Assembly: GCA_030692045.1 (NCBI GenBank)
Contig: JAUYCX010000037.1
Span: 62,001 to 126,000 of the forward strand
DNA length: 64,000 nucleotides
DNA from: Candidatus Omnitrophota bacterium
GTDB lineage: Bacteria > Omnitrophota > Gorgyraeia > JAUYCX01
Direction: 5' to 3'
In this document: positions 9,461 to 53,817 of the stretch, in pieces
Numbering within the stretch: position 1 is the stretch's first letter
Layout of the letters: every line of letters begins with the position of its first letter
Notes under the pieces: model-generated
The model's database searches: none
Told to the model about the DNA's origin: nothing
The model's input: the letters and a program-made list of their open reading frames with translations, nothing else
Translations under genes and position numbers: made by a program

Positions 9461-9474
9461 GGAGGAAAAACAAG

Positions 9475-12061
<2,587 letters not shown>

Positions 12062-13777: not shown

Positions 13778-14743
13778 ATGTCAATAAAAAAAATTGGTGT
13801 GCTAACTTCGGGTGGAGACGCCCCTGGCATGAACGCTGCAATTCGTAGTGTTGTGCGTTATGCAATATACCACAAACTGGAGGTTATGGGAATTTTGCGC
13901 GGATATGAAGGATTAATTAATGAAGAGCTAATGCCAATGAATCACCGCTCAGTTTCAAATATAATCAATCGCGGCGGAACAATTCTTAAAACCGCGCGCT
14001 CAGAAAGATTTATGGCTGAAGAAGGACAAGGCTTGGCAGTTGAAGTGATTAGGAAAAATAAGATTGATGGTTTGGTTCTAATCGGCGGAGATGGAACCTA
14101 TCGTGGCGGAAATTGCCTCTCTGAAAAATGGAAAATTCCCTGTGTGGGAGTGCCTTGCACAATTGACAATGATTTAAACGGAACTGATGCCACAATTGGT
14201 TCAGATACGGCAGTAAATACCGCCCTGGATGCCATTGATAAAATTAGGGATACTGCTACCAGTATGGAAAGAATTTTTGTAGTTGAGGTGATGGGAAGGT
14301 CTTCTGGTTTTATTGCTATGCAGGTTGCCTTGGCCGGAGGTAGTGAAGATGTAATTATCCCTGGAAGAGAATTAGACTACGAGACTATGTGCCATGAGAT
14401 AGTGAATGGAAATTTGCGCGGCAAGGTGAGCTGGATTATAATTGTAGCAGAAGGGACAAGCAGTGCCAGCGAAGTAGCGCAAGAGATACTTAAAAGAACC
14501 GATTTGGAAACCCGCGAGGTTGTTTTAGGGCATGTCCAGCGAGGAGGGAGTCCTACCGCCACAGACAGAATTTTAGCCACTCGCTTGGGAGCCGCGGCAG
14601 TAGATTTATTGCTTAAAGGAGAAACCAATAAGGCAGTAGGAATTGTAGCTGATAAAGTAAATGTCGTAGATTTTGAGACTGCAACTAAAGAGAAACCAGT
14701 TTCTTTCGAGGAATTATATAGATTATTAAAAATTTTAACCTAA
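13778..14743 (+). CDS. pfkA: ATP-dependent 6-phosphofructokinase
   Basis: Phosphorylates fructose-6-P to fructose-1,6-bisphosphate. N-terminus IGVLTSGGDAPGMNAAIR binds ATP; IGGDGTYRGG (G103-G104-D105-G106) has glycine where PPi-dependent enzymes carry aspartate, so ATP is the likely donor. VPCTIDNDLNGTD holds the catalytic aspartate, and VEVMGRSSGFIA and GHVQRGGSPTATDR are conserved substrate-site segments. Length 321 is the bacterial norm. It lies 18 bases ahead of an aldolase gene, giving two consecutive glycolytic steps. Confidence 0.96.
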   Translation: MSIKKIGVLTSGGDAPGMNAAIRSVVRYAIYHKLEVMGILRGYEGLINEELMPMNHRSVSNIINRGGTILKTARSERFMAEEGQGLAVEVIRKNKIDGLVLIGGDGTYRGGNCLSEKWKIPCVGVPCTIDNDLNGTDATIGSDTAVNTALDAIDKIRDTATSMERIFVVEVMGRSSGFIAMQVALAGGSEDVIIPGRELDYETMCHEIVNGNLRGKVSWIIIVAEGTSSASEVAQEILKRTDLETREVVLGHVQRGGSPTATDRILATRLGAAAVDLLLKGETNKAVGIVADKVNVVDFETATKEKPVSFEELYRLLKILT

Positions 14744-14760
14744 ATATGGAGGCTTAAACT

Positions 14761-16077
14761 GTGAAGCAAAAAGAAATTGATATTTTAGTTAATGATTTAA
14801 TTTTCACAGATGACATCAAAAAAAAGCAGGATTGTTTAGCTAAAATTTGGGAAATCGCCAAATCCAAGCGGATTATTTTAAGCTCTATCCATGATTTATA
14901 CAGGGCAAGGGGTAGAGACGAAATTGGTGGATTTACAGTTCCGGCCATAAACTTGCGCGGATTAACCCTTCATCTGGCACGTGCAATTTTTCGTACTAGC
15001 CTACGAAATGATGCAGGAGCATTTATCTTTGAGATTGCCAAAAGCGAAATGGGTTATACTAATCAGCGTCCAGTAGAATATACGGGTGTGGTTTTGGCAG
15101 CAGCCATAAAAGAGGGTTTTGTCGGTCCAGTTTTTATCCAAGGAGACCATTTCCAAATTAATGCCAAGAAGTTTACCGATGACCCTAAAAAGGAAATAAA
15201 TTCTATAAAGGAATTGATTGAAGAGTCAGTTAGCGCGGGATTTTATAATATTGATATTGACAGCTCCACGGTTGTGGATTTAGAGAAGCCCGAGATAAAA
15301 GAGCAGCAGAGGCAAAATTTTGAGACTTGTGCACAACTCACAAAATTTATCCGAAAGATTGAGCCAGAGGGAATAACAATTTCTGTGGGCGGGGAAATTG
15401 GAGAGGTAGGCGGAAAAAATTCTACACTTGAAGATTTACGCTTTTTTATGGAAGGATATAAGGAGAGCTTGCCAGCGGATATGCAGGGAATTAGTAAAAT
15501 TAGTATTCAAACTGGAACCTCTCACGGAGGTGTGGTCTTACCCAACGGTTCAATTGCTAATGTCAAATTGGACTTTGATACCTTAAAGAATTTATCCGAG
15601 GTAGCCAAACGGGAATACGGTTTGGCAGGTTGTGTGCAGCACGGCGCGTCAACCTTGCCTTCAGAGGCATTTCATAAATTTCCTGAGGTTGAAACTGCTG
15701 AAGTCCATTTGGCAACTGAATTTCAGAATATGATTTATGAAAACAAATATTTTCCTCCTGAATTAAAGGAGAGAATTTATTTTTGGCTTAATAAAAATTG
15801 CTCTGATGAGAGAGAAGATGAGCAAACCGAGGAGCAATTTATCTACAAGACGCGTAAAAAGGCATTAGGCCCATTTAAAAAGGAAATTATGAGTTTGCCT
15901 GAAGAGTTAAGGGAAAATATTGGTCATGACATTGAAGCAAAATTTGATTTTCTGTTTAAGCAGTTAAAGGTTATCAACGCGAAGGATATAGTTAAGAAAT
16001 ACATTAAGCCGGTAGAAACTAAACTGTTAATTAGAAAAGGACAAAAGGCAAAGATTGATAGCGAAGGAGCGGACTAA
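14761..16077 (+). CDS. Class II fructose/tagatose-bisphosphate aldolase family protein
   Basis: Probable fructose-1,6-bisphosphate aldolase. GTG start at 14761 with GGAGG about nine bases upstream. A class II aldolase-like barrel is suggested by AGAFIFEIAKSEMGYTNQ, FIQGDHFQIN (metal histidine), NIDIDSSTVVD, TISVGGEIGEVGGKN (metal Glu) and IQTGTSHGG (metal His). At 438 residues it is longer than standard FbaA (~310-360), with an extra charged C-terminal region of about 80 residues. Context right after pfkA supports the fructose-bisphosphate role; tagatose-bisphosphate activity is possible. Confidence 0.78.
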   Translation: MKQKEIDILVNDLIFTDDIKKKQDCLAKIWEIAKSKRIILSSIHDLYRARGRDEIGGFTVPAINLRGLTLHLARAIFRTSLRNDAGAFIFEIAKSEMGYTNQRPVEYTGVVLAAAIKEGFVGPVFIQGDHFQINAKKFTDDPKKEINSIKELIEESVSAGFYNIDIDSSTVVDLEKPEIKEQQRQNFETCAQLTKFIRKIEPEGITISVGGEIGEVGGKNSTLEDLRFFMEGYKESLPADMQGISKISIQTGTSHGGVVLPNGSIANVKLDFDTLKNLSEVAKREYGLAGCVQHGASTLPSEAFHKFPEVETAEVHLATEFQNMIYENKYFPPELKERIYFWLNKNCSDEREDEQTEEQFIYKTRKKALGPFKKEIMSLPEELRENIGHDIEAKFDFLFKQLKVINAKDIVKKYIKPVETKLLIRKGQKAKIDSEGAD

Positions 16078-16080
16078 TAA

Positions 16081-16150
16081 AATCCAAATATCAAAAATTA
16101 AATATCAAAATGACAATGCAAAATTTAAAATTTTTAAGCCATTTTGGATT
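16081..16150. repeat. AATCCAAA/TTTGGATT inverted repeat
   Basis: AATCCAAA (16081-16088) and TTTGGATT (16143-16150) are perfect inverted arms around an AT-rich loop with ATTAAATATCAAAA-type units. Similar ATCAAATATCAAAA strings occur at 59036-59055 and 59597. It fills the junction before ilvD. Confidence 0.5.
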
Positions 16151-16176
16151 AACTTTTAATTCAAAGCGAGGTAAAC

Positions 16177-17829
16177 ATGCGTTCTGATACAATTAAAAAA
16201 GGCATTGAGAGAATTCCTCATCGCGCGCTTTTGTATTCCACAGGGTTGACCCCGCAGGATATGAAGAAGCCATTTGTGGGAATTGCTTCTAGTTTTTCAG
16301 ATTTAGTTCCGGGACATACAAATATGAGGAGCTTAGAACGTTCCATTGAAAATGGCATTTACGAGGCTGGGGGTGTTCCATTTGTATTTGGAATGCCGGG
16401 AATTTGTGACGGAATTGCTATGGGACATTCTGGAATGAAATATTCGCTTGCCTCGCGCGAACTTATTGCAGATTGTGTAGAATCAGTAGCTAATGCGCAT
16501 TGCCTGGATGGATTAGTTTTGTTGACCAATTGCGATAAAATTACTCCAGGAATGTTGATGGCAGTTGCCAGATTAAATATTCCTTCAGTTGTGGTAACTG
16601 CAGGTCCAATGATGACTGGCAGATACAAAGGCAAAAGGCTTTCTTTGGTGCGTGATACATTTGAGGCAGTGGCTAAAGCAAGGCTGGGTGCAATTACAGA
16701 AGAAGAAATCCATTCCCTTGAAATGTGCGCCTGTCCTGGCTCTGGTTCTTGTCAAGGTTTGTATACCGCAAATACAATGTCTTGTTTAACTGAAACCTTA
16801 GGATTATCCTTAACAGGTTGTGCAACTGCTTTGGTTGTCTTGGCAAAAAAAGAAAGAATTGCTTTTGAAAGCGGCAGAAAAATTGTGGAATTGGTTAAGA
16901 AAAATATTTTACCTCACACAATTCTTACTAAAAAAGCTTTTGAGAATGCAATTACTATGGATATGGCTTTGGGTGGTTCAACTAATACTGTCTTACATCT
17001 ATTAGCTATTGCTCATGAGGCAGGTATAGATTTACCCTTAGAAACATTTGATAAAATCAGCCAAAATACACCCAACATTACTTCTTTAGAGCCAGCCGGA
17101 GATTTTTATATGGAAGATTTGGAATATGCCGGCGGAATTCCTGCGGTAATGAAAAGATTAAAGTCAAAACTAAATGATTGCCCAACAGTTAATGGTAAAT
17201 CCATTTATAAAATTGCAGAAGAGGCAGAGATTTCTGATGAAGAGGTTATTCGTCCTTTAAATAAACCTTTCCATAAACAGGGCGGCATTGCAATTTTATG
17301 GGGAAACCTGGCACCTAAGGGAAGTGTGGTAAAACAAGTTGCGGTGTCAGAAAAAATGATGCATTTTAAAGGTAAAGCAGTGTGTTTTAATTGCGAAGAA
17401 GAAGCTGTGGCTGCGATTATGAATGGCAAGATTAAGAAGGGAAGTGTTTTAGTTATCCGTTATGAAGGGCCCAAGGGTGGCCCGGGAATGCGGGAGATGC
17501 TTTCACCTACCTCTTTAATTGTGGGTATGGGTTTATCTAACGACGTTGCCTTAATTACTGATGGAAGATTTTCAGGCGGCACGCGCGGCCCTTGCATTGG
17601 TCATATCTCGCCGGAAGCCGCATCAGGAGGCCCTATCGCAGTCATTAAAAATGGCGATGAAATTGCAATTGATATCCCAAAGAGAAAGTTGGAAATAAAT
17701 TTAAGCAAAAAAGAATTGGATTCGCGCTTAGAAGCATGGAAGGCACCAAAGCCAAAGATTACATCTGGCTATCTATCACGTTATGCTAAATTAGTAAGCT
17801 CTGCAGATAAGGGAGCAATATTAGAGTAA
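16177..17829 (+). CDS. ilvD: Dihydroxy-acid dehydratase
   Basis: Dehydrates dihydroxyvalerate/methylvalerate in isoleucine and valine synthesis, using an Fe-S cluster. Diagnostic motifs: [11 protein letters not shown] (cluster Cys), [18 protein letters not shown] (second cluster Cys), [15 protein letters not shown], and near the end [25 protein letters not shown]. Length 550 is typical. GAGGT lies about seven bases before the ATG. It heads the ilvD-ilvB-ilvN-ilvC-leuA run. Confidence 0.97.
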
Positions 17830-17910
17830 CGCGAATTAACACGAATTGCACGCGAATAGACACGAGTTTAATTCGTGTGAATTAGTGTTTGATTCGTTTA
17901 AATTCGTGTT
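17830..17910. repeat. ACACGAAT/ATTCGTGT palindromic repeat, copy 2 (variant)
   Basis: Same layout as the ACACGGAT family but with A replacing G: AACACGAATTG and ACACGAG on the left, TTCGTGTGAATTAGTG and AATTCGTGTT on the right. It fills the ilvD-ilvB junction and is followed at once by GAGGAGTGAAACGACGAATG, very similar to the leader after copy 3. Confidence 0.7.
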
Positions 17911-17929
17911 ATGAGGAGTGAAACGACGA

Positions 17930-19591
17930 ATGAACGGTGCGCAAATTTTAATTGAGTCCTTAATAAAAGAGGGCGTTCAAGTTATGTTTGGCTATCCGGG
18001 AGGAGCAGTTTTGCCAATTTTCGATGCTCTTTATGAATGCCCCATCAGATTTATTTTAACCCGCCACGAGCAAGGTGCTGCCCACGCTGCCGACGGATAT
18101 TCACGCGCAACTGGCAAGGTAGGAGTTTGTATTGCTACATCTGGTCCAGGGGCAACAAACCTGACAACCGGCATTGCCAATGCCTATATGGATTCAATTC
18201 CTCTGGTGGCTTTAACCGGACAAGTAAAAACTTTTTTAATTGGAAATGATGCCTTTCAAGAGGCTGATGTAACTGGCGTTACACGACCAATTACTAAACA
18301 TAATTATCTGGTTAAAGATGTAAATGACTTAGCCAGAACTGTGAGAGAAGCGTTTCATATCGCATCTACTGGCAGGCCCGGTCCAGTGCTAATTGATATT
18401 CCTGTGGATGTGCAATTGCAGGAAGCAGAATTTATCTGGCCAGAAAAGGTGGATATCCGAGGATATAAACCTACAATCTTTGGCCATCCAGGCCAGATTA
18501 AAAAAGCTGCCAAGGCAATTGCCAAAAGTAAAAAGCCAATTATCTATGTGGGTGGCGGCGCAATTACATCTAACTGTGCTCAAGAGATTAAAGAATTGGC
18601 AGAAAAAATTCAAGCCCCAGTAACTATGACTTTAATGGGTTTAGGGGCATTCCCTATGACTGATGAGTTATCTTTGGGAATGCTGGGTATGCACGGTACA
18701 GCTTATGCCAATCACGCTACTATGGAGTCTGATTTAATTTTAGCCATTGGCGCAAGATTTGATGATAGAGTTACAGGTCGTTTGGATGCCTTTGCGCCTC
18801 ATGCAAAGGTGATACATATTGATATTGACCCAACTTCCATCAGCAAAAATGTGCATGTAGATATTCCAATTGTGGGTGATGCAAAGAATGTTTTAGGACA
18901 ATTATTAGAGGTAATTGAGGCGCCAGACACCAGTGAATGGCTTAAGACAATTAATCACTGGAAAAAAACTCATCCTTTAAAATATAATGAGGGCTACAAA
19001 ATCAAACCCCAATATGTGATTGAACAAATTTATGAGGCAACTAAGGGCGAGGCAATTATCACAACCGAGGTAGGTCAAAATCAAATGTGGAGCTGTCAGT
19101 GGTACAAATACACACAGCCGCGCACATTTATTTCCAGCGGCGGTTTAGGCACAATGGGTTTTGGCTTTCCTGCGGCAATTGGTGCAAAGGTCGGCCATCC
19201 GGAAAGAATAGTTGTTGACATTGCCGGAGATGGCTCAATTCAAATGAATATCCAGGAATTGGCAACTGCTGTGCATGAAAAAATTTATGTGAAGGTGGCA
19301 ATTTTAAATAATGGGTATTTAGGCATGGTGCGCCAATGGCAAGAGTTATTTTATAAAAAACGCTATTCTTACACTACGCTTTATAATCCAGACTTTGTAA
19401 AGCTGGCAGAAAGTTATGGAGCGCTAGGTTTGCGTGTAACCAAAAAAGAAGAGGTGCGCCCAGCAATTGAAAAAGCAATATTTACAGACAATGTGGTATT
19501 CATTGATTTTCATATCGAACCAGAAGAAAATGTTTATCCTATGGTGCCAACAGGCGAAGCCATTAATCGAATGATTGGCGGCATGGCTTAA
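17930..19591 (+). CDS. ilvB: Acetolactate synthase, large subunit
   Basis: ThDP-dependent enzyme that condenses pyruvate to acetolactate (or acetohydroxybutyrate). I choose the ATG at 17930: the product then starts [16 protein letters not shown], the family N-terminus, and GAGGAG lies 11 bases upstream; a GTG at 17918 is in frame but within that leader. Motifs: [16 protein letters not shown], the ThDP-activating Glu in [19 protein letters not shown], and [15 protein letters not shown] with [13 protein letters not shown]. About 553 residues. Works with IlvN encoded next. Confidence 0.96.
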
Positions 19592-19671
19592 ACACGGATA
19601 TAAAAGGATAAAAAAACGGATTAGCACGGTTAATCCGTTAAATCCGCATAAAATCTGTTAAATCCGTGTTA
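19592..19671. repeat. ACACGGAT/ATCCGTGT palindromic repeat, copy 3
   Basis: ACACGGATA and ACGGATTAGCACGG on the left, AATCCGTTAAATCCG and AAATCCGTGTT on the right. It begins right after the ilvB stop and is followed by AGAGGAGCGGTAGCGACGAATG, whose GAGGAG and CGACGAATG match the leader of ilvB. Confidence 0.72.
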
Positions 19672-19690
19672 AGAGGAGCGGTAGCGACGA

Positions 19691-20164
19691 ATGAAACACA
19701 CAATCTCAGCCTTAGTCGAAAACAAATTTGGCGTTTTGGCAAGGATTTCTGGGTTGTTTAGCGCCCGAGGTTATAATATTTCTTCCTTGAGCGTAAGCGA
19801 AACTGAAGACCCGACTATTTCCCGTATGACTATTCTTGTTGAAGCTGCGGATGAAAAGATACTTGAGCAGATAAAAAAACAGCTTAACCGCCTTATCGAT
19901 GTTATCAGTGTAGTAGATTTAACCAAAAAGGAATTTATCGAGAAAGAATTGGTTTTTGTAAAGGTAAATTCTTCCAAGGAAAACAAGTCAAAGATTGCAA
20001 AGGTTGTTAATAAATTCGCTGGCAAAATCTTGGAAGCCAAAGAAGATTACTTAATAATTGAGGCGGTGGTTGACCAGCGACATCTAAAGGATTTTTTAGA
20101 AGAACTAAAAGAATTTGGTATTAAGGAATTAGTCAGAAGCGGCAGAATAGCGATTACTAAATGA
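19691..20164 (+). CDS. ilvN: Acetolactate synthase, small (regulatory) subunit
   Basis: Regulatory partner of IlvB giving feedback control by valine. Starts MKHTISALVENKFGVLARISGLFSARGYN, an ACT domain with the expected glycine-rich turn, and has the second ACT-like half from about 80 with AGKILEAKEDYLIIEAV. Length 157 fits the IlvH/IlvN family. Start ATG at 19691 has GAGGAG 12 bases upstream, a slightly long spacing shared with ilvB. Confidence 0.96.
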   Translation: MKHTISALVENKFGVLARISGLFSARGYNISSLSVSETEDPTISRMTILVEAADEKILEQIKKQLNRLIDVISVVDLTKKEFIEKELVFVKVNSSKENKSKIAKVVNKFAGKILEAKEDYLIIEAVVDQRHLKDFLEELKEFGIKELVRSGRIAITK

Positions 20165-20194
20165 ATTTTTTAAGAAGGAAGGAGTAGGATTATT

Positions 20195-21196
20195 ATGGCA
20201 AAGATTTATTATGATACCGACGCTGATTTAGGAATTTTAAAAGACAAAAAAATCGCCATTATTGGTTATGGTATTCAAGGCAGAGCCCATGCCTTAAATC
20301 TAAAAGACTCGGGGTTAGATGTGGTTGTGGCTGAGATTTCTGGAACGCAAAGTTTTGAACAGGCAAAAAAGGATGGCTTTAATCCTGTCTCTGCCAAAGA
20401 GGCATCAGCAGAGGCGCAGGTTATTCAAATATTGGTGCAAGACCACATCCAGCCAAAAGTTTACAATGAAGAGATAAAGAAGAACTTAGCCAAGGGCAAG
20501 GCATTGGGTTTTTCGCATGGCTTTAATATCCGTTTTAAACAGATAAAGCCATCTAAGAAAATTGATGTGTTTATGGTTGCGCCCAAGGGTCCAGGTTCCT
20601 TAGTTCGCAAAATGTACATAGAGGCAAAGGGAGTTCCTTGTTTAGTGGCTATTCATCAAGATGCAAGTGGCAAGGCAAAGGATATTGCTTTGGCATATGC
20701 CAAAGGTATTGGCGGAACTAAAGCAGGAGTAATTGAGACTACTTTTACAGAAGAAACTGAAACTGACCTTTTTGGCGAACAAGCGGTTTTGTGTGGAGGC
20801 GTAACTGAACTAATCAAAGCCGGTTTTGATACCTTGCTCGAGGCAGGATTTCAGCCAGAGATTGCCTATTTTGAGGTTTTGCATGAGTTAAAACTTATTA
20901 CAGACTTAATTCAGGAAACTGGAATTTCTGGAATGCGCAGGCGGGTTTCTAACACAGCTTGTTACGGAGATTTAACTCGTGGACCAAAGGTTATCAATGA
21001 AAAAACCCGAAAGATTATGAAAAAAATACTAAAAGATATCCAGTCTGGAAAATTTGCCCGGGAATGGATTAAGGAAAATACAGCTGGCCGTCCAGTTTTT
21101 AACGAGCTTTTGAAAAAAGGCGATAGCCATCCGATAGAAGAAGTGGGAAGGAAGCTGCGAGAGATGATGCCGTGGATGCGAAGCGAACGCAAGTGA
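20195..21196 (+). CDS. ilvC: Ketol-acid reductoisomerase
   Basis: Reduces and isomerises acetolactate in valine/isoleucine synthesis. The Rossmann start [21 protein letters not shown] is clear; [14 protein letters not shown] and [22 protein letters not shown] carry conserved substrate and Mg sites (Asp/Glu in the ETDLFGEQ segment). Class I length (333). The C-terminal MRSERK and stop are written by DNA that belongs to a GCGA-rich repeat, so the repeat seems to have replaced or extended the end. RBS GGAAGGAG lies upstream. Confidence 0.97.
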
Positions 21197-21231
21197 GCGG
21201 AGTCCTGAGCGAGTGAAGCGAGTCGAAGGAA
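21180..21231. repeat. GCGA-rich REP-like repeat at the ilvC end
   Basis: The stretch GAGTCCTGAGCGAGTGAAGCGAGTCGAAGGA is an imperfect palindrome (TCCT...AGGA; GAGCGAG/GAAGCGAG units) of a kind common in bacterial spacers. It overlaps the last codons of ilvC. Confidence 0.5.
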
Positions 21232-21253
21232 AGAAATAAGTAAAAAGGAAAAA

Positions 21254-21349
21254 GTGGATAAAATAATCATTTTCGACACAACCTTAAGAGACAGAGAGCA
21301 GGCACCACGCGTAACTTTAGATGTCAATTCAAAGAATTATAAACAATAG
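21254..21349 (+). pseudogene. Relic of the 5' end of a leuA-like gene
   Basis: From GTG 21254 the frame reads [18 protein letters not shown], nearly the same as the start of LeuA at 21938 ([18 protein letters not shown]), then loses similarity and stops at 21349 after 31 residues. Most base differences from the real leuA are at synonymous third positions, so this is not a fresh direct duplication; it looks like the remnant of a diverged paralogue (isopropylmalate/citramalate/homocitrate synthase family) or an old copy. The Gly of the conserved RDGEQ motif is Arg here. Confidence 0.75.
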
Positions 21350-21367
21350 AAAATAAAAAGGTATAGC

Positions 21368-21928
21368 ATGAATAAAGTATGGAGGTTTTTTAATTTAGGG
21401 GGGATAATAGGTTCTGTAATTGCATATCTACTTTATTTGTTGTTAACCCTCATGTTCGCAGGTGGGGCTAAATTTTTCTTTTGTGAAATTGGGGGTATTA
21501 TTCTTTTAATAATAGGATTTCTTCCGGCTATTCTAACAGGATTTATTCCTTATGGACTATTAGGTATTTTAACATTATTTATCATTAGGAAATATTCAGC
21601 GATTGTATCTTTAAAAAAGTTAAGATTATATTTGATATTTTTAGGATTGGTTTATCCTTTAGTCTTAACAGTAGTTTATGCTTTTGGGCTTACGCTTCTT
21701 GGCCTCGTTAGATCCACTATAACCTTAAATGAAGCACTTTCAGCTAGTGTTAGTATTACTAAATATATGTTTTCAATGAATGGAGGTTCAGGTGGTTTTA
21801 TACCATCTTTTCCCAATTTGTTTAATATGCTTATTTTTTTGACTTCCGGGATGAGCGTATCTCTTATTTTGTTAAATGTATTCATAAGGGAAAACAAGAA
21901 TAATGCGTCAACCACAAATTCTCATTAA
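21368..21928 (+). CDS. Hypothetical multi-spanning membrane protein
   Basis: Not recognised. The 186-residue product is very hydrophobic, with about five membrane segments (roughly 10-31, 39-58, 60-73, 84-110, 147-168) and a short polar tail. A loop with GGSGGFIPSFPN lies before the last segment. It sits between the leuA relic and leuA, so it may have entered the ilv-leu run together with the event that left the relic. No clear Shine-Dalgarno beyond AAAGG about 12 bases upstream of the ATG. Confidence 0.6.
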   Translation: MNKVWRFFNLGGIIGSVIAYLLYLLLTLMFAGGAKFFFCEIGGIILLIIGFLPAILTGFIPYGLLGILTLFIIRKYSAIVSLKKLRLYLIFLGLVYPLVLTVVYAFGLTLLGLVRSTITLNEALSASVSITKYMFSMNGGSGGFIPSFPNLFNMLIFLTSGMSVSLILLNVFIRENKNNASTTNSH

Positions 21929-21937
21929 GTATAAACT

Positions 21938-23467
21938 ATGGACAAAATAATCATATTTGATACAACTCTTAGAGACGGCGAGCAGGCTCCGGGCGCAAGC
22001 CTCAATGCCAAGGAAAAATTAGAGATTGCGCAGGCTCTGGTGCGTTTAGGCGTGGATATTATTGAGGCAGGTTTTCCAGTTTCTTCAAAAGGGGATTTCG
22101 AGGCAGTAAAATTGGTTGCCTCTAAAATTAAAGCTGCCTCGGTTTGCGCCTTAGCTCGCGCCATAAAAAAGGATATTGATTGTGCTTACAATGCTATAAA
22201 AAATTCAGCACATCCGCGAATTCATGTATTTTTGGCAACCTCTAAAATACATATGCAATATAAACTTCAAAAAGCCGAAGATGAGATTTTGCGCTTAGCA
22301 GTTGAATCTGTAAAATATGCCAAGAAATACTGCTCTGATATTGAGTTTTCGCCTGAAGATGCTTCACGCACAGAAAAAGAATTTCTTTACCAGGTTTTAG
22401 AGGCAGTAATTGAGGCAGGGGCATTGACTTTAAACATTCCTGATACAGTTGGTTACGCAGAACCCGAAGAATTTGGAAGTTTAATTAAGGGGATAATAGA
22501 AAATGTAGCAAATATTAATAAAGCCATAATTTCTGTACATTGCCATAATGACTTAGGCTTAGCAGTGGCTAATTCTTTATTAGCAGTAAAAAATGGCGCC
22601 AGGCAGGTTGAGTGCACAATTAATGGCATCGGCGAAAGAGCTGGTAATGCCTCAATGGAAGAAATCGTAATGGCAATTAGAACGCGCAAGGATTTATTTG
22701 GGTTTACCACTTCCATTAACACTAAAGAAATATTTAAAGCCAGCAGATTGGTGAGCAAATTAACTGGATTTGTGGTTGCGCCCAACAAAGCAATTGTGGG
22801 TGTAAATGCCTTTAGACACGAGGCAGGTATTCATCAGGATGGAATTTTAAAGAAGCGTCAAACCTACGAAATTATTAAACCCGAGGATGTTGGTTTTTAT
22901 GGTCAAGGTTTGGTTTTAGGAAAACATTCTGGAAGGCATGCCTTTAAACAAAGATTAATTGCCTTAGGAATTAAATTAAAAGAGAACGAAACGCAAAGAG
23001 CCTTTGAGCGTTTTAAAATGGTTGCTGACAAGAAAAAAGAGGTTTACGACGAGGATTTAATTGCAATTATTGATGAGGAATTAAAAACTGCCAAAGAGAT
23101 TTGGCAGTTAGAGGAGTTAACTATTACCAGCGGCACTAAGATTACACCTTTTGCAACTGTAAAGATTAAGTCAAAAACTAAATCTTATACTAACAGCTCA
23201 TCTGGTGATGGACCAGTAGATGCCTGCTACAAGGCAATTGATAAGATTACTAAGATTAAAGGTGAGCTTATGGATTATTCAATTCAGTCAGTGACAAAAG
23301 GAAAAGATGCCTTAGGCGAGGTAAACGTTAAAGTAAAACTTAAAGGCAAGGAATTTAGCACTCGCGCCTCAAGCACAGATATTTTGGAAGCATCTGCCAA
23401 GGCATACATAAATGCAATCAACAAATTTCTCTCCCAGCCAAAAGCTCATCAGAGCCTGACCTTATAA
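21938..23467 (+). CDS. leuA: 2-isopropylmalate synthase
   Basis: First step of leucine synthesis: acetyl-CoA plus 2-ketoisovalerate. N-terminal TIM barrel with [16 protein letters not shown], the metal-binding [14 protein letters not shown] and the [10 protein letters not shown] loop; [11 protein letters not shown]-like [14 protein letters not shown] follows. The C-terminal regulatory domain (about 385-509) includes [14 protein letters not shown]. Length 509 fits full leucine-regulated enzymes. Four bases separate it from aroE. Confidence 0.95.
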
Positions 23468-23470
23468 TAG

Positions 23471-24322
23471 ATGTTTAGAAAGTCTCCCCAAAAAATTTAT
23501 GGCTTACTTGGCTTTCCGGCTAAACACAGCCTCTCAGCAATAATGCACAATGCTGCATTCAAGGCATTAAAGATTAATGCTGAGTATAAATTATTTGAGG
23601 TTGAGTCTAATGATTTTGTTGATTTCTTAAACAGTTTAGAAGAGCAGAATATATTTGGTTTAAATATTACCATTCCTTATAAAGAGAGGATAATGGATTT
23701 TGTTTCTCTTAGTTTTGAGGCGAATTACCTTAAAAGAATTGGGGCAGTTAACACAATAGTAAATAAAGAGGGCATTTGGAGGGGCTTTAATACGGATATT
23801 CCTGGTTTTGAAAAACATTTAAAAGAAAATTTCGAACCTGCTGGTAAGAATGTTGCTGTACTTGGCGCAGGCGGAGCAGCGCGCGCAGTTTGTTATGTTT
23901 TAGCCAAATCTAATGCAGAAAGAATTGCGATTTTTGACATTGATAAAGTAAAAGCGCAAATTGTTTCGAACATGATAAAAAGTTTATTTGATTTTAACAT
24001 TTTTCCTCTGGAAAAAATTGAGGAATTAGATTTAAGAAATAAAGATTTATTGGTAAATGCCACACCCCTGGGTTTAAATGAAAATGACCCATTTCCTATA
24101 AAAGAGGAATGGCTACACAAAGATTTATTTGTTTATGACCTGATTTATAATCCGCCTGAAACACAGTTATTAGCCATTGCCAAAAAAATTGGCGCTAAAA
24201 CCTCTAATGGCTTAGGCATGCTTTTATATCAGGGAATGCTTTCCTTTGAAATCTGGACTGGAAAACCAGCGCCCCGAGAGGCGATGGAGGGGGCGCTGTT
24301 AGAAGCATTGCATATAAAATGA
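23471..24322 (+). CDS. aroE: Shikimate dehydrogenase
   Basis: NADP-dependent reduction of dehydroshikimate. Motifs: YGLLGFPAKHSLSAIMHNAAF (shikimate binding), LNITIPYKERIMDF (catalytic Lys), GAVNTIVN, then the nucleotide-binding VLGAGGAARAVCYVL and VNATPLGLN. Length 283 fits. Together with aroC and aroK downstream it gives three shikimate-pathway genes. The stop codon TGA overlaps the beginning of an inverted-repeat element (ATGAGG). Confidence 0.95.
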   Translation: MFRKSPQKIYGLLGFPAKHSLSAIMHNAAFKALKINAEYKLFEVESNDFVDFLNSLEEQNIFGLNITIPYKERIMDFVSLSFEANYLKRIGAVNTIVNKEGIWRGFNTDIPGFEKHLKENFEPAGKNVAVLGAGGAARAVCYVLAKSNAERIAIFDIDKVKAQIVSNMIKSLFDFNIFPLEKIEELDLRNKDLLVNATPLGLNENDPFPIKEEWLHKDLFVYDLIYNPPETQLLAIAKKIGAKTSNGLGMLLYQGMLSFEIWTGKPAPREAMEGALLEALHIK

Positions 24323-24525
24323 GGTTTATGCTGTTTTTTACGGGTTCTGTCTTGGTTTGTTTCTCGACGCACCGCTCGCCCCGCCCCAGCGTGGCGGGGC
24401 TTCGCTCGGAGAAAATTTTCGCTCTGCCAAACTTTTATTATGAGGGGCATCCATGCCCGCTCAAATTTTCTACGTGCGTCTCGAAACTAAACCAAGCCAC
24501 CCGCAAACCGAAGTAAACGGCAAAG
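24320..24525. repeat. Long imperfect inverted repeat with nested hairpins
   Basis: Left CTTGGTTTgTTTCtCGACGCAC corresponds to the complement of right GTGCGTCTCGAAACTAAACCAAG; GAGAAAATTT on the left pairs with AAATTTTCTAC on the right. The left arm contains a strong extra hairpin, CCCCGCC with GGCGGGG, and the centre contains GGGCATCCATGCCC. No gene is supported in 24323-24656. Layout resembles the composite elements elsewhere: long-range stem, extra hairpin in an arm, and an ATGAGG left edge on the upstream stop codon. Confidence 0.65.
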
Positions 24526-24618
24526 AATTTAGTGCTGGAGAAGTTCGACAGCGAGCCAAATTGTCAAAGAGAATGATTTAGAGTCAATTTCAAACTCATT
24601 TTATTTTTGTTAATTCTA

Positions 24619-24647
24619 TTGAGCACGCAGATAAAAAATGCTAAAAT
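24619..24647 (+). promoter_or_regulatory. Sigma-70-like promoter for prepilin peptidase gene
   Basis: TTGAGC (24619-24624), a 17-base spacer and TAAAAT (24642-24647). The expected transcription start would be only a few bases before the ATG at 24657, so the message may have almost no leader. Confidence 0.55.
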
Positions 24648-24656
24648 TATCCCAAT

Positions 24657-25448
24657 ATGAATGACTTGTTTATAAAAATCCTGGTCTTCCTCTTCGGCTC
24701 AATGGTAGGCAGTTTCTTAAATGTCTGTATTTACAGAATGCCCAAGGAAGAGTCAATTGTTAAGCCCGGCTCACACTGTCCCAATTGCAGTGCTGTTATT
24801 TATTGGTTCGATAATATTCCCATTTTAAGTTATATAATTCTAATGGGGCGCTGCAGGTTTTGCAAAAAACCAATTTCTCCTGGCTATCCAATTGTAGAGC
24901 TTTTAACTGCAATTACATTTTTGGTATTCTATAATTATTTTGGGCTAACGTTTAAATTATTTGTGTATTTATTATTTGTTTCTGGCTTAATTGTGGCAAC
25001 CTTTGTGGACATTGCTCATCGAATTATTCCTGATGAAATTAGTATTGGCGGAATTATTGTAGGATTTATTTTAAGTATAATGTTTCCTCATATACAAAAT
25101 ACAACTTCACATTTTTGGGGGGGCGTTGAGTCTCTATTAGGCATTTTAATTGGCGGGGTTTCTATTTATTTAACCGGAATAATTGGCGATTGGATATTTA
25201 AGAAGGAATCTATGGGTGGAGGGGATGTAAAATTATTGGCAATGATTGGCGCATTTTTAGGCTGGCGCATTGCATTATTGACATTTTTTTTAGCGCCTTT
25301 GTTTGGAGCGGTTGTGGGGATAATTGTTAAGATAAAAACCAAACAGAGCCTTATTCCTTATGGACCGTTTCTTTCTTTAGCAGCAGTTATTTCGTTATTT
25401 TATTATCAGGAAGTAATTAACTGGATTTTTGGATACTATCGATATTAA
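24657..25448 (+). CDS. pilD: Type IV prepilin peptidase (leader peptidase/methyltransferase)
   Basis: Inner-membrane aspartyl protease that trims type IV pilin or type II secretion pseudopilin leaders and methylates the new N-terminus. It has the cytoplasmic zinc loop with two CxxC pairs (C41/C44, C66/C69) and the two catalytic aspartates: D118 in VDIAHRIIPDE and D190 in MGGGDVKLLAMIGA. About seven or eight membrane segments; length 263 is normal. Implies pilins or a type II system elsewhere in the genome. No other pilus gene is nearby, and it appears to be transcribed alone. Confidence 0.93.
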   Translation: MNDLFIKILVFLFGSMVGSFLNVCIYRMPKEESIVKPGSHCPNCSAVIYWFDNIPILSYIILMGRCRFCKKPISPGYPIVELLTAITFLVFYNYFGLTFKLFVYLLFVSGLIVATFVDIAHRIIPDEISIGGIIVGFILSIMFPHIQNTTSHFWGGVESLLGILIGGVSIYLTGIIGDWIFKKESMGGGDVKLLAMIGAFLGWRIALLTFFLAPLFGAVVGIIVKIKTKQSLIPYGPFLSLAAVISLFYYQEVINWIFGYYRY

Positions 25449-25454
25449 AAGACT

Positions 25455-25572
25455 GTTGAAAATTAATCTTGGACACGGATTACACGGATAAAAAGAGCGG
25501 ATTTTACAGATAAAAATCCGTGAAATCCGTAAGAAATCCGTGAAAATCCGTGTTTAAAAGTTATTATTCAAC
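25455..25572. repeat. ACACGGAT/ATCCGTGT palindromic repeat, copy 4
   Basis: Outer arms GTTGAA and TTCAAC; inside, ACACGGATTACACGGAT on the left faces AATCCGTGAAAATCCGTGT on the right. It fills the junction between the prepilin peptidase gene and aroC. Confidence 0.75.
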
Positions 25573-25597
25573 ACTCTAATATTAACGGGGGTGTTAG

Positions 25598-26638
25598 ATG
25601 TTAAGATATTTAACTTCTGGCGAATCACATGGTAAATGTGTTTTGGCAATATTAGAAGGCATGCCAGCTGGTCTAAAAATCAATGTAGATAAGATTAATT
25701 TGGAGTTAAAGCGTAGACAAAAAGGTTATGGCAGGGGTCCCAGAATGCAAATTGAGCCAGATAGGGCAGAAATTTTATCCGGCACAAGGCGAGGCATAAC
25801 AATTGGTAGCCCAATTGCTCTAAAGATTGATAATAAAGATAATTCTATTGAAGAATTACCTTCTGTAAGTTGCCCTCGTCCAGGTCACGCAGATTTAGCT
25901 GGTTGTCTAAAATATGGATTTGATGATATCCGCAATGTCTTAGAACGCGCCTCTGCCAGAGATACTGCCAGTCGATCGGCTATAGGTGCGGTGTGCAAGA
26001 TTTTTTTGGCTGAATTTGATATTGAAATTTTAAGCAAGGTTATTATGATAGGCAATGAAACAAATTCAGCTAAAATCAAAAACAAGATTGATGAGGCAAT
26101 TAAGAAAAAGGATACCTTAGGTGGAATTTTTGAGCTGATTGCAAAAAATGTTCCCGTGGGTTTAGGTAGTTATGTGCAACCCCACAGAAGGTTAGATAGT
26201 AAAATTGCCGCAGGCTTAATTTCCATTCCCGGAATTAAGGCAGTGGAATTTGGAATGGGTTTTGCTTGTGCCTCTAAATTTGGCTCAGAGGTTCATGATG
26301 CAATCTTTTTCTCAAAACAAAAAGGTTTTTTCAGGAAAACCAACAATGCCGGAGGTCTTGAAGGCGGCATAAGTAATGGAGAGCCTTTAGTTGTAAGATG
26401 CTGTATGAAGCCAATTTCCACGTTGTTAAATCCCTTGCCATCCGTAGATATTCTAACCAAAAGAGAAACCAAGGCAACTGTTGAGCGCTCTGATATCTGT
26501 GTTGTAGAAGCAGCAGGTGTTGTGGCAGAGGCAGTTTTAGCCTTTGAGATAACCTCTGCTATGTTAGAAAAGTTTGGAGGAGATAGCCTAAAAGAGATTA
26601 AGCGAAATTTCCAAGCCTTTAAGTCAAGCGCATTATAA
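25598..26638 (+). CDS. aroC: Chorismate synthase
   Basis: Last step of the shikimate pathway, FMN-dependent. Starts MLRYLTSGESHGKCVLAILEGMPAGL with the conserved GESHG; RRQKGYGRGPRMQIE, RPGHADLAGCLKYG and RASARDTASRSAIGA are further signatures, and GGLEGGISNGEPLVVR is present. Length 346 fits. A terminator-like hairpin follows the stop. Confidence 0.97.
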   Translation: MLRYLTSGESHGKCVLAILEGMPAGLKINVDKINLELKRRQKGYGRGPRMQIEPDRAEILSGTRRGITIGSPIALKIDNKDNSIEELPSVSCPRPGHADLAGCLKYGFDDIRNVLERASARDTASRSAIGAVCKIFLAEFDIEILSKVIMIGNETNSAKIKNKIDEAIKKKDTLGGIFELIAKNVPVGLGSYVQPHRRLDSKIAAGLISIPGIKAVEFGMGFACASKFGSEVHDAIFFSKQKGFFRKTNNAGGLEGGISNGEPLVVRCCMKPISTLLNPLPSVDILTKRETKATVERSDICVVEAAGVVAEAVLAFEITSAMLEKFGGDSLKEIKRNFQAFKSSAL

Positions 26639-26659
26639 GTATTTATAAATTATAAAGTT

Positions 26660-26696
26660 ATAGCCCAGATAGATAATTTGCTTTTATCTGGGCTAT
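26660..26696 (+). terminator. Terminator-like hairpin after aroC
   Basis: Perfect 12 bp stem ATAGCCCAGATA / TATCTGGGCTAT around a 13-base loop, 21 bases after the aroC stop, followed by ATTCTTTG, a weak T-tract. It separates aroC from the promoter of aroK. Confidence 0.6.
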
Positions 26697-26709
26697 ATTC
26701 TTTGTAAGA

Positions 26710-26738
26710 TTGACAGTTTTGGGCTTATATGTTAAAAT
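26710..26738 (+). promoter_or_regulatory. Sigma-70-like promoter for aroK operon
   Basis: Consensus -35 TTGACA (26710-26715), 17-base spacer, -10 TAAAAT (26733-26738), 21 bases ahead of the aroK ATG. It lies right after the hairpin that ends the aroC unit. Confidence 0.75.
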
Positions 26739-26759
26739 TTACCCCGTTAGGTAAGAAGA

Positions 26760-27272
26760 ATGAAGAGTGAAAAAAACATCTCCTTAATTGGTTTTATGGG
26801 AGCAGGTAAGACAGTTGTAGGCAAAGAACTGGCTAATCAGCTAAATTTAGAATTTGTAGATTTGGACAGCCTAATAGAGGCAAGAGAAAAAATGCCAATT
26901 AGTGAAATATTTGCCAAAGAGGGTGAGCCATATTTTCGCAAGCTCGAGAAGGAAATGGTTAATAAAGTTTGCCAGAGTCAAGGTGTTGTAATTGCTTGCG
27001 GAGGCGGAGTTGTTTTAGATAAGGAAAATTTGCAAAATCTAAAACAAAATTCTAGGCTTATTTATCTAAAGGCATCCGCAGAAGTTATCTTTGAAAGAAC
27101 AAAAAACCAAACACACCGGCCTTTATTGGATGTGGAAAAGCCAAAAGTAAGGATTGCGCAGTTACTTAAGTTGCGTGAGCCATTCTATACCCAAGCAGAT
27201 TATACAATTGATACATCCAAGTTAGATGTTGATGAGGTAGTAAGCAAGATTCTTAAGATTTTAAAAGAATGA
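26760..27272 (+). CDS. aroK: Shikimate kinase
   Basis: Phosphorylates shikimate with ATP. Walker A GFMGAGKTVVGKELA near residues 11-25, FVDLDSLIEAREKMPISEIFAKEGEPYFRK (shikimate-binding Asp and Arg), the CGGGVV motif, and the lid/adenine segment TKNQTHRPLL. Length 170 fits. First gene of a unit whose members overlap: the ATGA junction with dprA is four bases. Confidence 0.95.
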   Translation: MKSEKNISLIGFMGAGKTVVGKELANQLNLEFVDLDSLIEAREKMPISEIFAKEGEPYFRKLEKEMVNKVCQSQGVVIACGGGVVLDKENLQNLKQNSRLIYLKASAEVIFERTKNQTHRPLLDVEKPKVRIAQLLKLREPFYTQADYTIDTSKLDVDEVVSKILKILKE

Positions 27273-28387
27273 CAGATTTAGAAAGTTTATTGATTTTGAA
27301 TTCGATTTCTCAACTGGGGAGCATCCGCATCAAAAAATTATTAGAGCATTTTGGCGAGACTAAGAAAATACTTTTAGCCACGCAAAAAGAGCTTTGCGCA
27401 GTTGAAGGGATAAGTTTGGCAGTTGCCCAGAATATCGTAAGCAGGAAAAACAAGCTGGATATTAAAAAAGAGTTAGATTTAGCCGATAAAAATGGTATTA
27501 AAATAATCAGTATTCAGGATAAAGACTATCCAGAAAATCTGAAGAATATTTATGACCCTCCCATAATTCTTTACATTAAGGGTCGGCTTTTAGAAAAGGA
27601 TATTTTTTCTATCGCAATTGTGGGTTCAAGGCGCGCTTCTATTTATGGAATAAGCACTGCAGAAAAATTTGCCTTTGAATTAGCACAATTAGGTATTACC
27701 ATTGTTTCTGGTATGGCGCGGGGCATTGACAGCGCTGCTCATCGAGGTAGCTTAAAGTCAAAAGGCAGAACAATTGCAGTTTTAGGAAGCGGCTTATTAA
27801 ATATTTATCCTCCTGAAAATAAGGAATTGTTTCAAGAGATTTGTGAAAATGGTTGTGTTATTTCAGAGTTTCCTTTAGAAACTAAGCCCCTTGCAGAAAA
27901 CTTTCCCAGAAGAAACCGTATCATAAGTGGTTTGTCTTTGGGTTTAATTGTAGTTGAGGCATCGCGTAATAGCGGAGCTCTTATCAGCGCCAATTTGGCT
28001 TTGGAACAAGGCAGAGAGGTTTTTGCTGTGCCGGGTAAGGTTGATAGTGTAAATTCTTTTGGAGTGCATACCCTTATAAAACAAGGAGCAAAACTTACTG
28101 CCTCAATTGATGATGTGTTAACAGAGTTAAAGCCGCATTTAACAGGCTTGATTAAAAGTTCTAAAAAATCTCAGCAAGAATTTAGTCCAAAGCCAAATTT
28201 AGAGCTTAACAAAGAGGAGACAATAGTTTGTGAGCTTATTAATGAAGATGCAAAATATATAGATGAGATAGTTGAAATGAGCAATTTATCAGTTACAAAG
28301 GTAATGTCCATTTTGACTAATTTGGAATTAAGGCACATTGTTAAGCAATTGCCAGGAAAATTATTTGTGAGGAAATCTAATGTCTAA
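27269..28387 (+). CDS. dprA: DNA processing protein DprA
   Basis: Loads RecA on incoming single-stranded DNA during natural transformation. An N-terminal helix-hairpin-helix region (about 1-70) is followed by the Rossmann-like DprA core with IVGSRRASIYG, IVSGMARGIDSAAHRGSLK, GSGLLNIYPPEN and FPRRNRIISGLS, and GALISANLALEQGREVFAVPG. A C-terminal winged-helix-like region (about 310-372) ends the protein. Overlaps topA by eight bases; dprA-topA is a common neighbour pair. Confidence 0.95.
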   Translation: MTDLESLLILNSISQLGSIRIKKLLEHFGETKKILLATQKELCAVEGISLAVAQNIVSRKNKLDIKKELDLADKNGIKIISIQDKDYPENLKNIYDPPIILYIKGRLLEKDIFSIAIVGSRRASIYGISTAEKFAFELAQLGITIVSGMARGIDSAAHRGSLKSKGRTIAVLGSGLLNIYPPENKELFQEICENGCVISEFPLETKPLAENFPRRNRIISGLSLGLIVVEASRNSGALISANLALEQGREVFAVPGKVDSVNSFGVHTLIKQGAKLTASIDDVLTELKPHLTGLIKSSKKSQQEFSPKPNLELNKEETIVCELINEDAKYIDEIVEMSNLSVTKVMSILTNLELRHIVKQLPGKLFVRKSNV

Positions 28388-30347
28388 ATCCTTAGTTATC
28401 GTAGAGTCGCCGGCAAAGGCAAAGACTATCAATAAAATTCTGGGAGATGATTTTGTGGTTGAGTCTTCTATGGGTCATATTGTGGATTTGCCTCAAAAGT
28501 CAATGGGCGTGGATTTAAAGGATAATTTTAAGCCCGAATACGAGGTGATTGCCAAAAAGAAGAAAATTCTCTCCCAGCTTAAGAAACAGGCAAAGGATAA
28601 AAAAAGGATTTATTTAGCTACAGACCCTGACAGAGAGGGTGAGGCAATCGGCTGGCATTTAAAGGAAAAGATTGGCGGTAAGGGTGAATTTTTGCGTGTA
28701 GTATTTCACGAAATAACCAAAGAGGCTGTTCTCGATGCATTTAAGAATCCTAAAGGCATTGATGCTAACAAAGTTAATGCCCAGACCGCGCGGCGCATTT
28801 TAGATAGGTTAGTTGGTTATCTTTTAAGCCCGCTTTTGTGGAAAAATGTGGGTTCTCGTTTAAGCGCTGGCCGTGTTCAGTCGGTTGTTCTTAGGCTTAT
28901 AGTTGAGCGGGAAAAGGCAATTAAAGCATTTATACCAGAGGAATATTGGCAGATTGAGGCAAAGTTAAAAAAGAAAGATAAAAAATTAATTTTCACTGCC
29001 AATTTGGAGAAGATTGACAAAAACAAATTTGAAATTAAGACTGAAGAAGTGGCTCATCAATTTCTTGGTGAAATAAAGCAAAATAAATTTATTGTTTCAG
29101 ACATTCAGGAAAGACAAATTAAACGCAATCCCCTGCCTCCTTTTATTACGAGTACACTTCAGCAAGAGGCATTTAACAAATTGAAATTCACGGCTAATAA
29201 GACGATGATGATTGCCCAGGCGCTTTACGAGGGCATAGAGTTAGGAAAGGAAGGCCCAGTTGGTCTAATTACTTATATGCGCACAGATTCTGTAAGAGTG
29301 GCTGAATCAGCTATCCAAGAAGCCAGGGATTTTATTTTAGAAAACTTCGGCAAAGATTATCTGCCCGAAACACCAAATTTTTACAAGTCCAAAAAAAGTG
29401 CCCAAGAGGCGCACGAGGCAATTAGGCCCACACTTTCAAAGCGTAAACCCGATTCAATAAAAGAATTCTTAACCCCTGAGCAATTTAAACTTTATGAACT
29501 TATCTGGAAAAGATTTTTAAGCAGCCAGATGGCGCAGGAGAAGATTTTATCCACCAAAATCCAGATAGAGGCTGGCAGATTTACATTTGGAGTAACTGGT
29601 TCAAAATTAATTTTTGAGGGATTTATGGCGCTTTATAAAACTGAAGAAGAAAAAGAAAGCCAGCTTCCTCCTTTTAGCTTGAAAGAAGAGTTGGATTTAA
29701 TTGAGTTAATTCCCAGTCAACATTTTACAAAACCACCGCCTCGGTTTTCTGATGCCTCGCTAGTTAAGGCTTTAGAGGAAGACGGTATTGGTAGGCCCAG
29801 CACTTACGCGCCCATCATTTCAAATATTGTGGCGCGTCATTATGTTTTTCGTCAAAGAGGATATTTTATTCCTTCGGAGTTGGGGGTTTTGATAACTGAG
29901 CTCTTAATTCAGTATTTTCCGAAAGTAATGGATATTGGTTTTACTGCTAAGATGGAAGAGGAGCTGGATAAAATTGAAGATGGCTTAATTATCTGGCAGG
30001 ATGTTTTAAATGAATTTTATCAGCCATTCCAGGCAGATTTAAGTTTTGCTAAGGAGCATATGAAGAAGACGCAAATTTTTGTGGATAAAACTTGTCCTGA
30101 ATGTGGCAAGACATTGGTGATAAAATGGGGCAGAAACGGCAGGTTTTTAAGCTGCTCTGGCTTTCCTGCTTGTCGCTATGCAGAATCTTTTTTAACTGGG
30201 GTAAAATGCCCGCAGACTAACTGTGGTGGAGAATTGGTTGAGAGGCGTTCCAAAAGGGGTGGTATATTTTTTGGCTGTAGTAATTATCCTAAATGCACAT
30301 TTATGACAAGAAATCTTCCCACGGAATCAAAACCAGCAGAGGCGTAA
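28380..30347 (+). CDS. topA: DNA topoisomerase I
   Basis: Type IA topoisomerase that relaxes negative supercoils. TOPRIM domain with E9 in IVESPAKAKTI and D82/D84/E86 in TDPDREGEAI; active-site tyrosine Y299 in GLITYMRTDSVR. The C-terminal part carries two zinc-ribbon modules (CPECGK...CSGFPACRY and CPQTNCGG...CSNYPKC). At 655 residues it is shorter than E. coli TopA, in the range of enzymes with two ribbons. Confidence 0.97.
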   Translation: MSKSLVIVESPAKAKTINKILGDDFVVESSMGHIVDLPQKSMGVDLKDNFKPEYEVIAKKKKILSQLKKQAKDKKRIYLATDPDREGEAIGWHLKEKIGGKGEFLRVVFHEITKEAVLDAFKNPKGIDANKVNAQTARRILDRLVGYLLSPLLWKNVGSRLSAGRVQSVVLRLIVEREKAIKAFIPEEYWQIEAKLKKKDKKLIFTANLEKIDKNKFEIKTEEVAHQFLGEIKQNKFIVSDIQERQIKRNPLPPFITSTLQQEAFNKLKFTANKTMMIAQALYEGIELGKEGPVGLITYMRTDSVRVAESAIQEARDFILENFGKDYLPETPNFYKSKKSAQEAHEAIRPTLSKRKPDSIKEFLTPEQFKLYELIWKRFLSSQMAQEKILSTKIQIEAGRFTFGVTGSKLIFEGFMALYKTEEEKESQLPPFSLKEELDLIELIPSQHFTKPPPRFSDASLVKALEEDGIGRPSTYAPIISNIVARHYVFRQRGYFIPSELGVLITELLIQYFPKVMDIGFTAKMEEELDKIEDGLIIWQDVLNEFYQPFQADLSFAKEHMKKTQIFVDKTCPECGKTLVIKWGRNGRFLSCSGFPACRYAESFLTGVKCPQTNCGGELVERRSKRGGIFFGCSNYPKCTFMTRNLPTESKPAEA

Positions 30348-43765: not shown

Positions 43766-43851
43766 TAGGGTAATAACTTTTTCTAATGGGGTAATAAATA
43801 GGGTAATGAAGGCGACTTGTATATTTTAATTTCAAAGAGTATAGCTCAGGC

Positions 43852-52446: not shown

Positions 52447-52475
52447 TTGACGAATATAATAAGTTATGGTAAAAT
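52447..52475 (+). promoter_or_regulatory. Sigma-70-like promoter
   Basis: TTGACG (52447-52452), 17-base spacer, TAAAAT (52470-52475), 13 bases ahead of the ATG at 52489. It begins right where inverted-repeat copy B ends, so it would drive the downstream LPS-linked genes. Confidence 0.65.
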
Positions 52476-53816: not shown

Positions 53817-53817
53817 T

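Follow-up and report, generated by a model that had tools for sequence, protein, structure and literature searches.

Organization of the ilvC–leuA locus

The window, by which we mean the whole 64,000-nt stretch of DNA that was analysed, lies on contig 9 of a 2.19-Mb genome assembly (2,187,264 bases in 119 contigs, ~95.7% complete, with an estimated contamination of 7.53%). On its plus strand, ilvC, encoding ketol-acid reductoisomerase (20195–21196; NCBIfam NF004017/TIGR00465), is followed by a 57-nt spacer (21197–21253) of a length ordinary for ilvC–leuA junctions, a relic of the leuA start (21254–21349), the gene of an orphan membrane protein of 186 aa (21368–21928) and intact leuA, encoding 2-isopropylmalate synthase (21938–23467; NCBIfam NF002086/TIGR00973; Pfam HMGL-like and LeuA_dimer). 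The relic, the membrane-protein gene and leuA share one reading frame, and 9 nt separate the stop codon of the membrane-protein gene from the leuA ATG. The 18 nt before this ATG contain no Shine–Dalgarno-like motif, which is not unusual because the strict motif is present in only 10 of the 48 relatives with an aligned leuA start codon. By LeuA, the nearest kin are Omnitrophota genomes, with L005 the best match (75% identity), and the ilvC product is 80% identical to its L005 orthologue; the kin compared stand at class distance, none of those in the comparison set being from the genus, family or order of the source.

Two repeat-like features of the window can be recorded here. The last codons of ilvC enter a GC-rich GAGCGAAGCGAG-type repeat-like stretch (21165–21230), the core of which occurs once in the source genome (at most one mismatch), with diverged look-alikes elsewhere. 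Separately, an interspersed repeat family built around ATTAGTGCTGG and its complement is present in three to four copies with partly inverted parts (9265–9478, 52238–52462, 53443–53834 and 61272–61322), and is possibly a miniature mobile element.

The insert between relic and leuA holds a single plus-strand open reading frame of at least 60 aa, that of the membrane protein. Its GC content is 30.8%, compared with 37.4% for the window, placing it in the lowest 1.1% of same-size windows across the 64 kb. The protein has at least five hydrophobic segments, and a single-sequence structure model is all-helical at low confidence (mean pLDDT 65.3, pTM 0.37). No match was found in Pfam, PHROGs, NCBIfam, PADLOC, PDB sequences, plasmids or phages, and a search of viral contigs gave no confirmed relative. 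Weak matches occur in 4 of 383 other genomes of the phylum, the best of them inside an unrelated 149-aa open reading frame, and a second, probably overlapping, draw of 384 genomes added nothing. As far as searched, the protein is an orphan.

A decayed copy of the leuA start

The relic, 31 codons that run from a GTG at 21254 to a TAG at 21347–21349, is a decayed copy of the start of leuA, offset by 684 nt from the ATG of the intact gene at 21938. The direct repeat formed by 21255–21327 and 21939–22011 (74% identity over 73 nt) is the longest reported within 19500–24500, and the local DNA score of relic against leuA is 35, compared with a maximum of 17 in 1000 shuffles; the longest exact run common to the two is 11 nt. 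For the 31-residue peptide, the best NCBIfam model is 2-isopropylmalate synthase (E=1.9e-6), with a profile match that extends up to codon 27 and bit scores of 26.6 for LeuA, 22.1 for the archaeal type and 19.2 for homocitrate synthase; Pfam returns HMGL-like (E=5.5e-4). In a screen of 565 flanks upstream of gene starts (1.5 kb each; open reading frames of at least 180 aa in the window and 80 leuA loci), the relic scored 89, and the sole other upstream score above 60 was 71, from an intact paralogue.

The differences between relic and gene have the character of coding change. Over codons 2–18, 8 codons are identical, 8 differ synonymously and 1 is changed, and 9 of the 11 nucleotide differences fall in third positions (P=0.0014 if all three positions were equally likely to differ). 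Over codons 2–27 the corresponding counts are 8, 10 and 8, and the third-position share is only 13/23, so that the tail of the relic is either more decayed or not homologous. We also considered the tail as a LeuA C-terminal end and rejected this, having found no likeness to C-termini by eye. Damage is evident as G14R and G19R, both at positions occupied by glycine in all 80 relatives compared, and the full LeuA catalytic domain with its invariant glycines is not present in the 31 codons. A preliminary description of the window had reported a LeuA-like relic 684 nt upstream of leuA, mostly synonymous differences within the first 18 codons and a membrane protein of no assignable family in the gap, all of which are upheld by the profile, codon and library comparisons above. 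It had also proposed divergence under selection before decay; the third-position excess and the loss of two invariant glycines fit this proposal, and, judged by these patterns, relic and leuA were apparently both under selection for much of the time since they split, with the damage coming later.

How long ago this split occurred can be gauged from leuA itself. The relic shares 55/78 nt with its own leuA, and the median pair among 80 leuA starts shares 53/78 nt (quartiles 50–56; 3160 pairs). The distance between relic and gene is thus the typical distance between Omnitrophota leuA starts, and the split is about that old. This divergence, as between the leuA genes of different Omnitrophota, rules out a recent copy of the present leuA. 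A recent tandem duplication, which should show near identity and a copied upstream region, is rejected on the same count of shared nucleotides and on an upstream likeness not above that of shuffled sequences. The best match of the relic is L062 (56/78 nt), and no donor was identified.

The relic has a start codon of its own, an AAGG motif at the usual distance and an in-frame stop, features that a short translated leader regulating leuA would possess. Such a leader is extremely improbable, as the open reading frame is not seen in relatives and contains only 2 leucine codons. Other regulatory candidates were likewise rejected: 14000–30000 has no Rfam match to a riboswitch or regulatory RNA, the sole terminator-like site lies inside the membrane-protein gene, and promoter- and terminator-like counts are at chance level.

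The leuA loci of relatives

Both the relic and the membrane protein are absent from the leuA loci of 80 relatives, where nothing but the start of leuA proper resembles the relic, and 29 further loci with ~1.5 kb of flank (one identical to L005) contain no relic, membrane protein or second leuA. In 69 of the 80 loci ilvC lies upstream of leuA. Between the last matched position of ilvC and leuA lie at most 234 nt in 57 of these 69, and 295 to 2131 nt in the other 12. Seven of the wide gaps hold a protein of 623–671 aa, two have no open reading frame of 80 codons on the leuA strand, and the remaining three contain what we take to be two methyltransferase-like proteins and one nucleotidyltransferase-like protein. 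Because 12 relatives have wide gaps, mostly with open reading frames, the ilvC–leuA junction tolerates insertions. The position of the relic looks native: it begins 57 nt after ilvC, the usual starting place of leuA in relatives, much as an ilvN relic in another Omnitrophota genome (L027, described below) begins 3 nt after ilvB.

These loci also bear on the possibility that an old leuA duplicate was functional in this lineage and was later reduced to its start while the membrane-protein gene moved in. Such a history would account for both the selected divergence and the position of the relic, and the uvrA and valS relics described below are slightly closer to their own genes than to the relatives compared. 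We nonetheless regard it as doubtful. No tandem leuA pair exists in the 80 loci: a second LeuA-like gene upstream of leuA is absent from all of them, 69 of which reach ilvC, and the second LeuA-family matches in 3 of the 80 are distant (30–31% identity) and downstream of leuA. The source genome has two LeuA-family genes elsewhere, also distant (27% and 32% identity), and 287 of 292 genomes of the class have a LeuA-family match. Moreover, the same history would need to recur for uvrA, valS and truA, and the sequences upstream of relic and gene lack similarity. The preliminary description had left a choice between the trace of a replaced leuA paralogue and that of an insertion that brought its own start, and had proposed comparing relatives for a second LeuA-like gene or for a missing membrane protein. 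At class distance, neither a second upstream leuA nor the membrane protein was found; with no upstream second LeuA in the 80 loci and only distant family members elsewhere, the insertion fits better, leaving a paralogue confined to this lineage a modest chance.

Start relics at other genes of the genome

We searched the window and another 39 stretches of the source genome (838,000 of 2,187,264 bases, 38%; 757 open reading frames of at least 120 codons; a first run covered 438,000 bases) for fragments matching the N- or C-terminal residues of a gene product, in the same orientation as the gene, no more than 5–6 kb away and not inside long frames. Five start relics with the arrangement of relic, insert and intact gene were found, at leuA, uvrA, valS, truA and a GT2 glycosyltransferase gene. 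The uvrA relic (L153 6583–7007, minus strand) lies 424 nt before the intact start, with ~230 nt between relic and gene, and has F in place of S beside a lysine that we assume belongs to a Walker-type motif. By eye, its insert seemingly contains the opening and closing codons of an aminotransferase gene; a 28-aa piece of this insert has no Pfam match. The valS relic (~16 codons; L151 15909–16161, minus strand; offset 252 nt) is separated from its gene by ~200 nt with short ATATCAG-type repeats. Between the truA relic and truA (L154 9425–10158, minus strand; offset 733 nt) lies an antitoxin/toxin-like pair, comprising an 87-aa MazE-like and a 95-aa weakly ParE-like protein, both with Pfam scores below the curated cut-offs. 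The GT2 relic (L127 14390–16720; offset 2330 nt) precedes a 720-aa aldo-keto reductase/radical-SAM protein that ends 9 nt before the intact GT2 gene, and is a weaker case because another intact GT2 gene directly precedes the relic. The identities of ValS and UvrA were confirmed by NCBIfam and that of TruA by Pfam; NCBIfam, at the strict limit applied, returned no match for TruA.

One further arrangement in the window, judged from sequence likeness, is probably the mirror image of the leuA case. Intact radC (41932–42639, plus strand; Pfam RadC E=6.3e-42) is followed by a Fic-family gene (42734–43765, plus strand; Pfam Fic E=3.7e-14) and then by a probable relic of the radC 3′ end (43822–43899, plus strand), which matches radC at 84% over 32 nt and is open to its own stop; a 25-aa piece of this relic has no Pfam match. 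This case is weaker because another intact radC-like gene follows at 44050–44709.

Across the start relics, identity between relic and gene is 65–82%. The relics of uvrA and valS are closer to their own gene than to the best relative (0.80 vs 0.77 and 0.75 vs 0.71, respectively), and that of leuA is about equally close to both (0.71 vs 0.72); the genes themselves match their best relatives at 0.79, 0.77 and 0.79 for uvrA, valS and leuA. When the five start relics of this genome are pooled with the ilvN and pfkA relics of two related genomes, third positions account for 90 of 136 differences, and 77 of 107 changed codons are synonymous and 30 are not (codon 1 being left out of the counts for leuA, valS, truA and ilvN). 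This synonymous share, which is biased upward because the protein-based screen favours synonymous change, exceeds the value of 0.467 that we roughly estimate for one copy free of selection since the split (P=4e-6) and is compatible with 0.6 (P=0.08). In all seven pairs, the 60 nt upstream of relic and gene show no likeness above the best of 200 shuffles, truA coming nearest to a signal, with 11 where its shuffles average 7.4 and reach at most 15. Each pair therefore seems to consist of two orthologous starts from different contexts. Such dissimilarity in seven of seven cases would be expected for two alleles of different surroundings, rather than for a fresh tandem duplication.

An assembly with 119 contigs and 7.53% estimated contamination might contain chimeras of related strains, in which a contig ending within leuA of one strain has been joined to the membrane-protein gene and leuA of another. 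The relics are damaged, however (G14R and G19R in leuA, the serine-to-phenylalanine change in uvrA and a deletion of ~33 nt in the L027 ilvN relic), and are thus unlike a join of two living genes. In addition, L005 is the best or nearly the best match for the ilvC flank as well as for the leuA–aroE flank. We consider a chimera at leuA improbable.

Frequency of relics and control screens

Neither G262 (400 kb screened) nor E. coli K-12 (250 kb) yielded a start relic in the protein screen. G075 (400 kb) yielded one, of pfkA (L200 8624–8752), which lies 128 nt before intact pfkA, with no gene between the two and 13 of 17 differences in third positions; the other matches in G075 were repeat-like. 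In 646 kb of leuA loci, the sole case was that of ilvN in L027 (1480–2500; Omnitrophota MAG QZM4_1.bins.77), where the relic with its internal deletion is offset by 1020 nt and is followed by two open reading frames of no clear family (one weak TPR match) and then by intact ilvN. The leuA loci were screened with 45-residue gene ends within 5 kb, and G262, G075 and E. coli with 60-residue ends within 6 kb; both settings gave the same five start relics in the source genome. A DNA-only screen, which has no preference for synonymous change, recovered leuA, uvrA, truA, GT2, radC and ilvN and missed valS and pfkA.

Several matches were set aside by eye as repeated families or unclear repeats (pilin-like genes in L138, glycosyltransferases in L127 and L128, and matches in L159 and L161, together with L187 and L199 of G075); from L127 only the start relic was retained. 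We attributed short DNA-only matches (22–45 nt, E values between 4e-7 and 8e-4) to chance or to repeats; they occurred in L161, L147, L128, L154, L149 and L136 of this genome, in L179 of G262, in L194, L195, L186 and others of G075, and in the leuA loci L036, L083, L053 and L055.

Start relics number 5 for 757 open reading frames in this genome and 2 for 1385 elsewhere, an excess that is not significant (P=0.10, or 0.19 without GT2). Start relics outnumber end relics by 5:1 here (P=0.22) and by 7:1 with the two other genomes included (P=0.07); gene ends are less conserved than gene starts.

Origin of the relic

In homology-facilitated illegitimate recombination (HFIR; PMC3240628), one homologous anchor and one illegitimate joint add non-homologous DNA beside a conserved stretch. 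We give somewhat better than even chances to the proposal that the leuA relic is the native start left behind when DNA from a related lineage joined the locus by HFIR or a similar route. The incoming DNA would have carried the membrane-protein gene and the start of its own leuA. The right joint would have formed by homologous recombination within leuA or beyond, and the left joint by illegitimate recombination or very short homology inside about codons 18–27 of the resident leuA. The outcome would be the old start, the foreign gene and a new start fused to leuA, in which the new start feeds the working gene and the old start then decays. The direction of transfer, a crossover, the route of recombination and a foreign origin for the 5′ end that leuA now has are parts of this proposal that we infer. 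We read the start relics at the other genes in the same way. An identity of 65–82% is low for homologous recombination. The predominance of start relics also sits badly with one-sided recombination, which should yield start and end relics alike, although the 5:1 ratio is not significant.

A foreign 5′ end of leuA, uvrA or valS was sought by half-gene, sliding and clade comparisons, which gave no resolution. We saw no mosaic in LeuA, L005 being nearest by path for both halves and L008 having the highest identity in the first half. Along LeuA, the sliding identity of L005 ranks 15, 2, 49, 32, 3, 4, 1, 13 and 14 of 80, without a clear break. In clade tests of six segments of leuA, UvrA and ValS, sisterhood of the window with L005 (or with the UvrA and ValS of the same genome) was never rejected, the nearest rejection being valS 76–600 (P=0.15).

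Two further origins would involve more specialized machinery. First, the insert could be what is left of an integrative element whose attachment site was the 5′ end of leuA. Like the elements known at dusA and prfC, it would have supplied a divergent start in replacement of the old one, and it would since have shrunk to one gene. The geometry is the same, with the old start at one junction and a new, divergent start at the other, and start relics are more numerous than end relics here, albeit not significantly. Against this stand the 684-nt size with one open reading frame and no phage or plasmid match, among which we found neither an integrase nor an att core, and the longest exact run between relic and gene of only 11 nt. 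The other cases moreover involve unrelated genes with unrelated inserts, so that no common element or site is visible, and we judge such a remnant unlikely. Second, core genes of this lineage could be the targets of a recurrent, directed process that places one accessory gene at the start of each, provides a diverged start that works and leaves the former start behind as a relic. Small inserts in such number, at targets unrelated to one another, would be unlike the integrative elements known to us, and we assign such a process only a slim chance.

If the proposal of one-sided joining is correct, the relics would be fossils that record the sites and the manner of accessory-gene capture beside core genes in an uncultured phylum, and a single genome would suffice to find them, by a search for fragments of gene starts a short way upstream of the intact genes. 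Should a larger count uphold the preference for gene starts, which is not yet significant, it would indicate either a mechanism or selection. A small full-text literature search returned no matching account of displaced-gene remnants, which does not prove absence in print.

Comparison with known systems

In mosaic operons, in situ gene displacement exchanges an operon gene in place with a diverged orthologue. The leuA locus differs in that intact leuA lacks a clear foreign origin, and in that a fragment of a start and an added gene remain. The integrative elements of dusA and prfC are large. According to PMC8409611, IMEVchUSA3 and SXT insert into the start of a core gene (dusA and prfC, respectively), whose new, divergent N-terminus is supplied by the insert; for dusA elements, the new N-terminus is of identical length and 61% identical over 35 residues. 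The feature shared with our locus is a divergent copy of the start at each junction (74% over 73 nt here). Those elements, however, carry an integrase, have defined att sites and use one target, whereas here a single small gene, no visible integrase and several target genes are involved.

HFIR is known from competent bacteria and from E. coli conjugation and has been proposed for effector–immunity arrays; here the genes are biosynthetic or housekeeping, and the route is inferred from sequence alone. A non-homologous insert beside a conserved gene is what the locus presents, the membrane-protein gene being absent from the sets of 80 and 29 loci, and HFIR can leave displaced pieces of genes (PMC5361080). 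The locus is most likely a scar of an already known kind, and the recurrence of similar scars within one genome, at unrelated genes and mostly at their starts, is the notable part.
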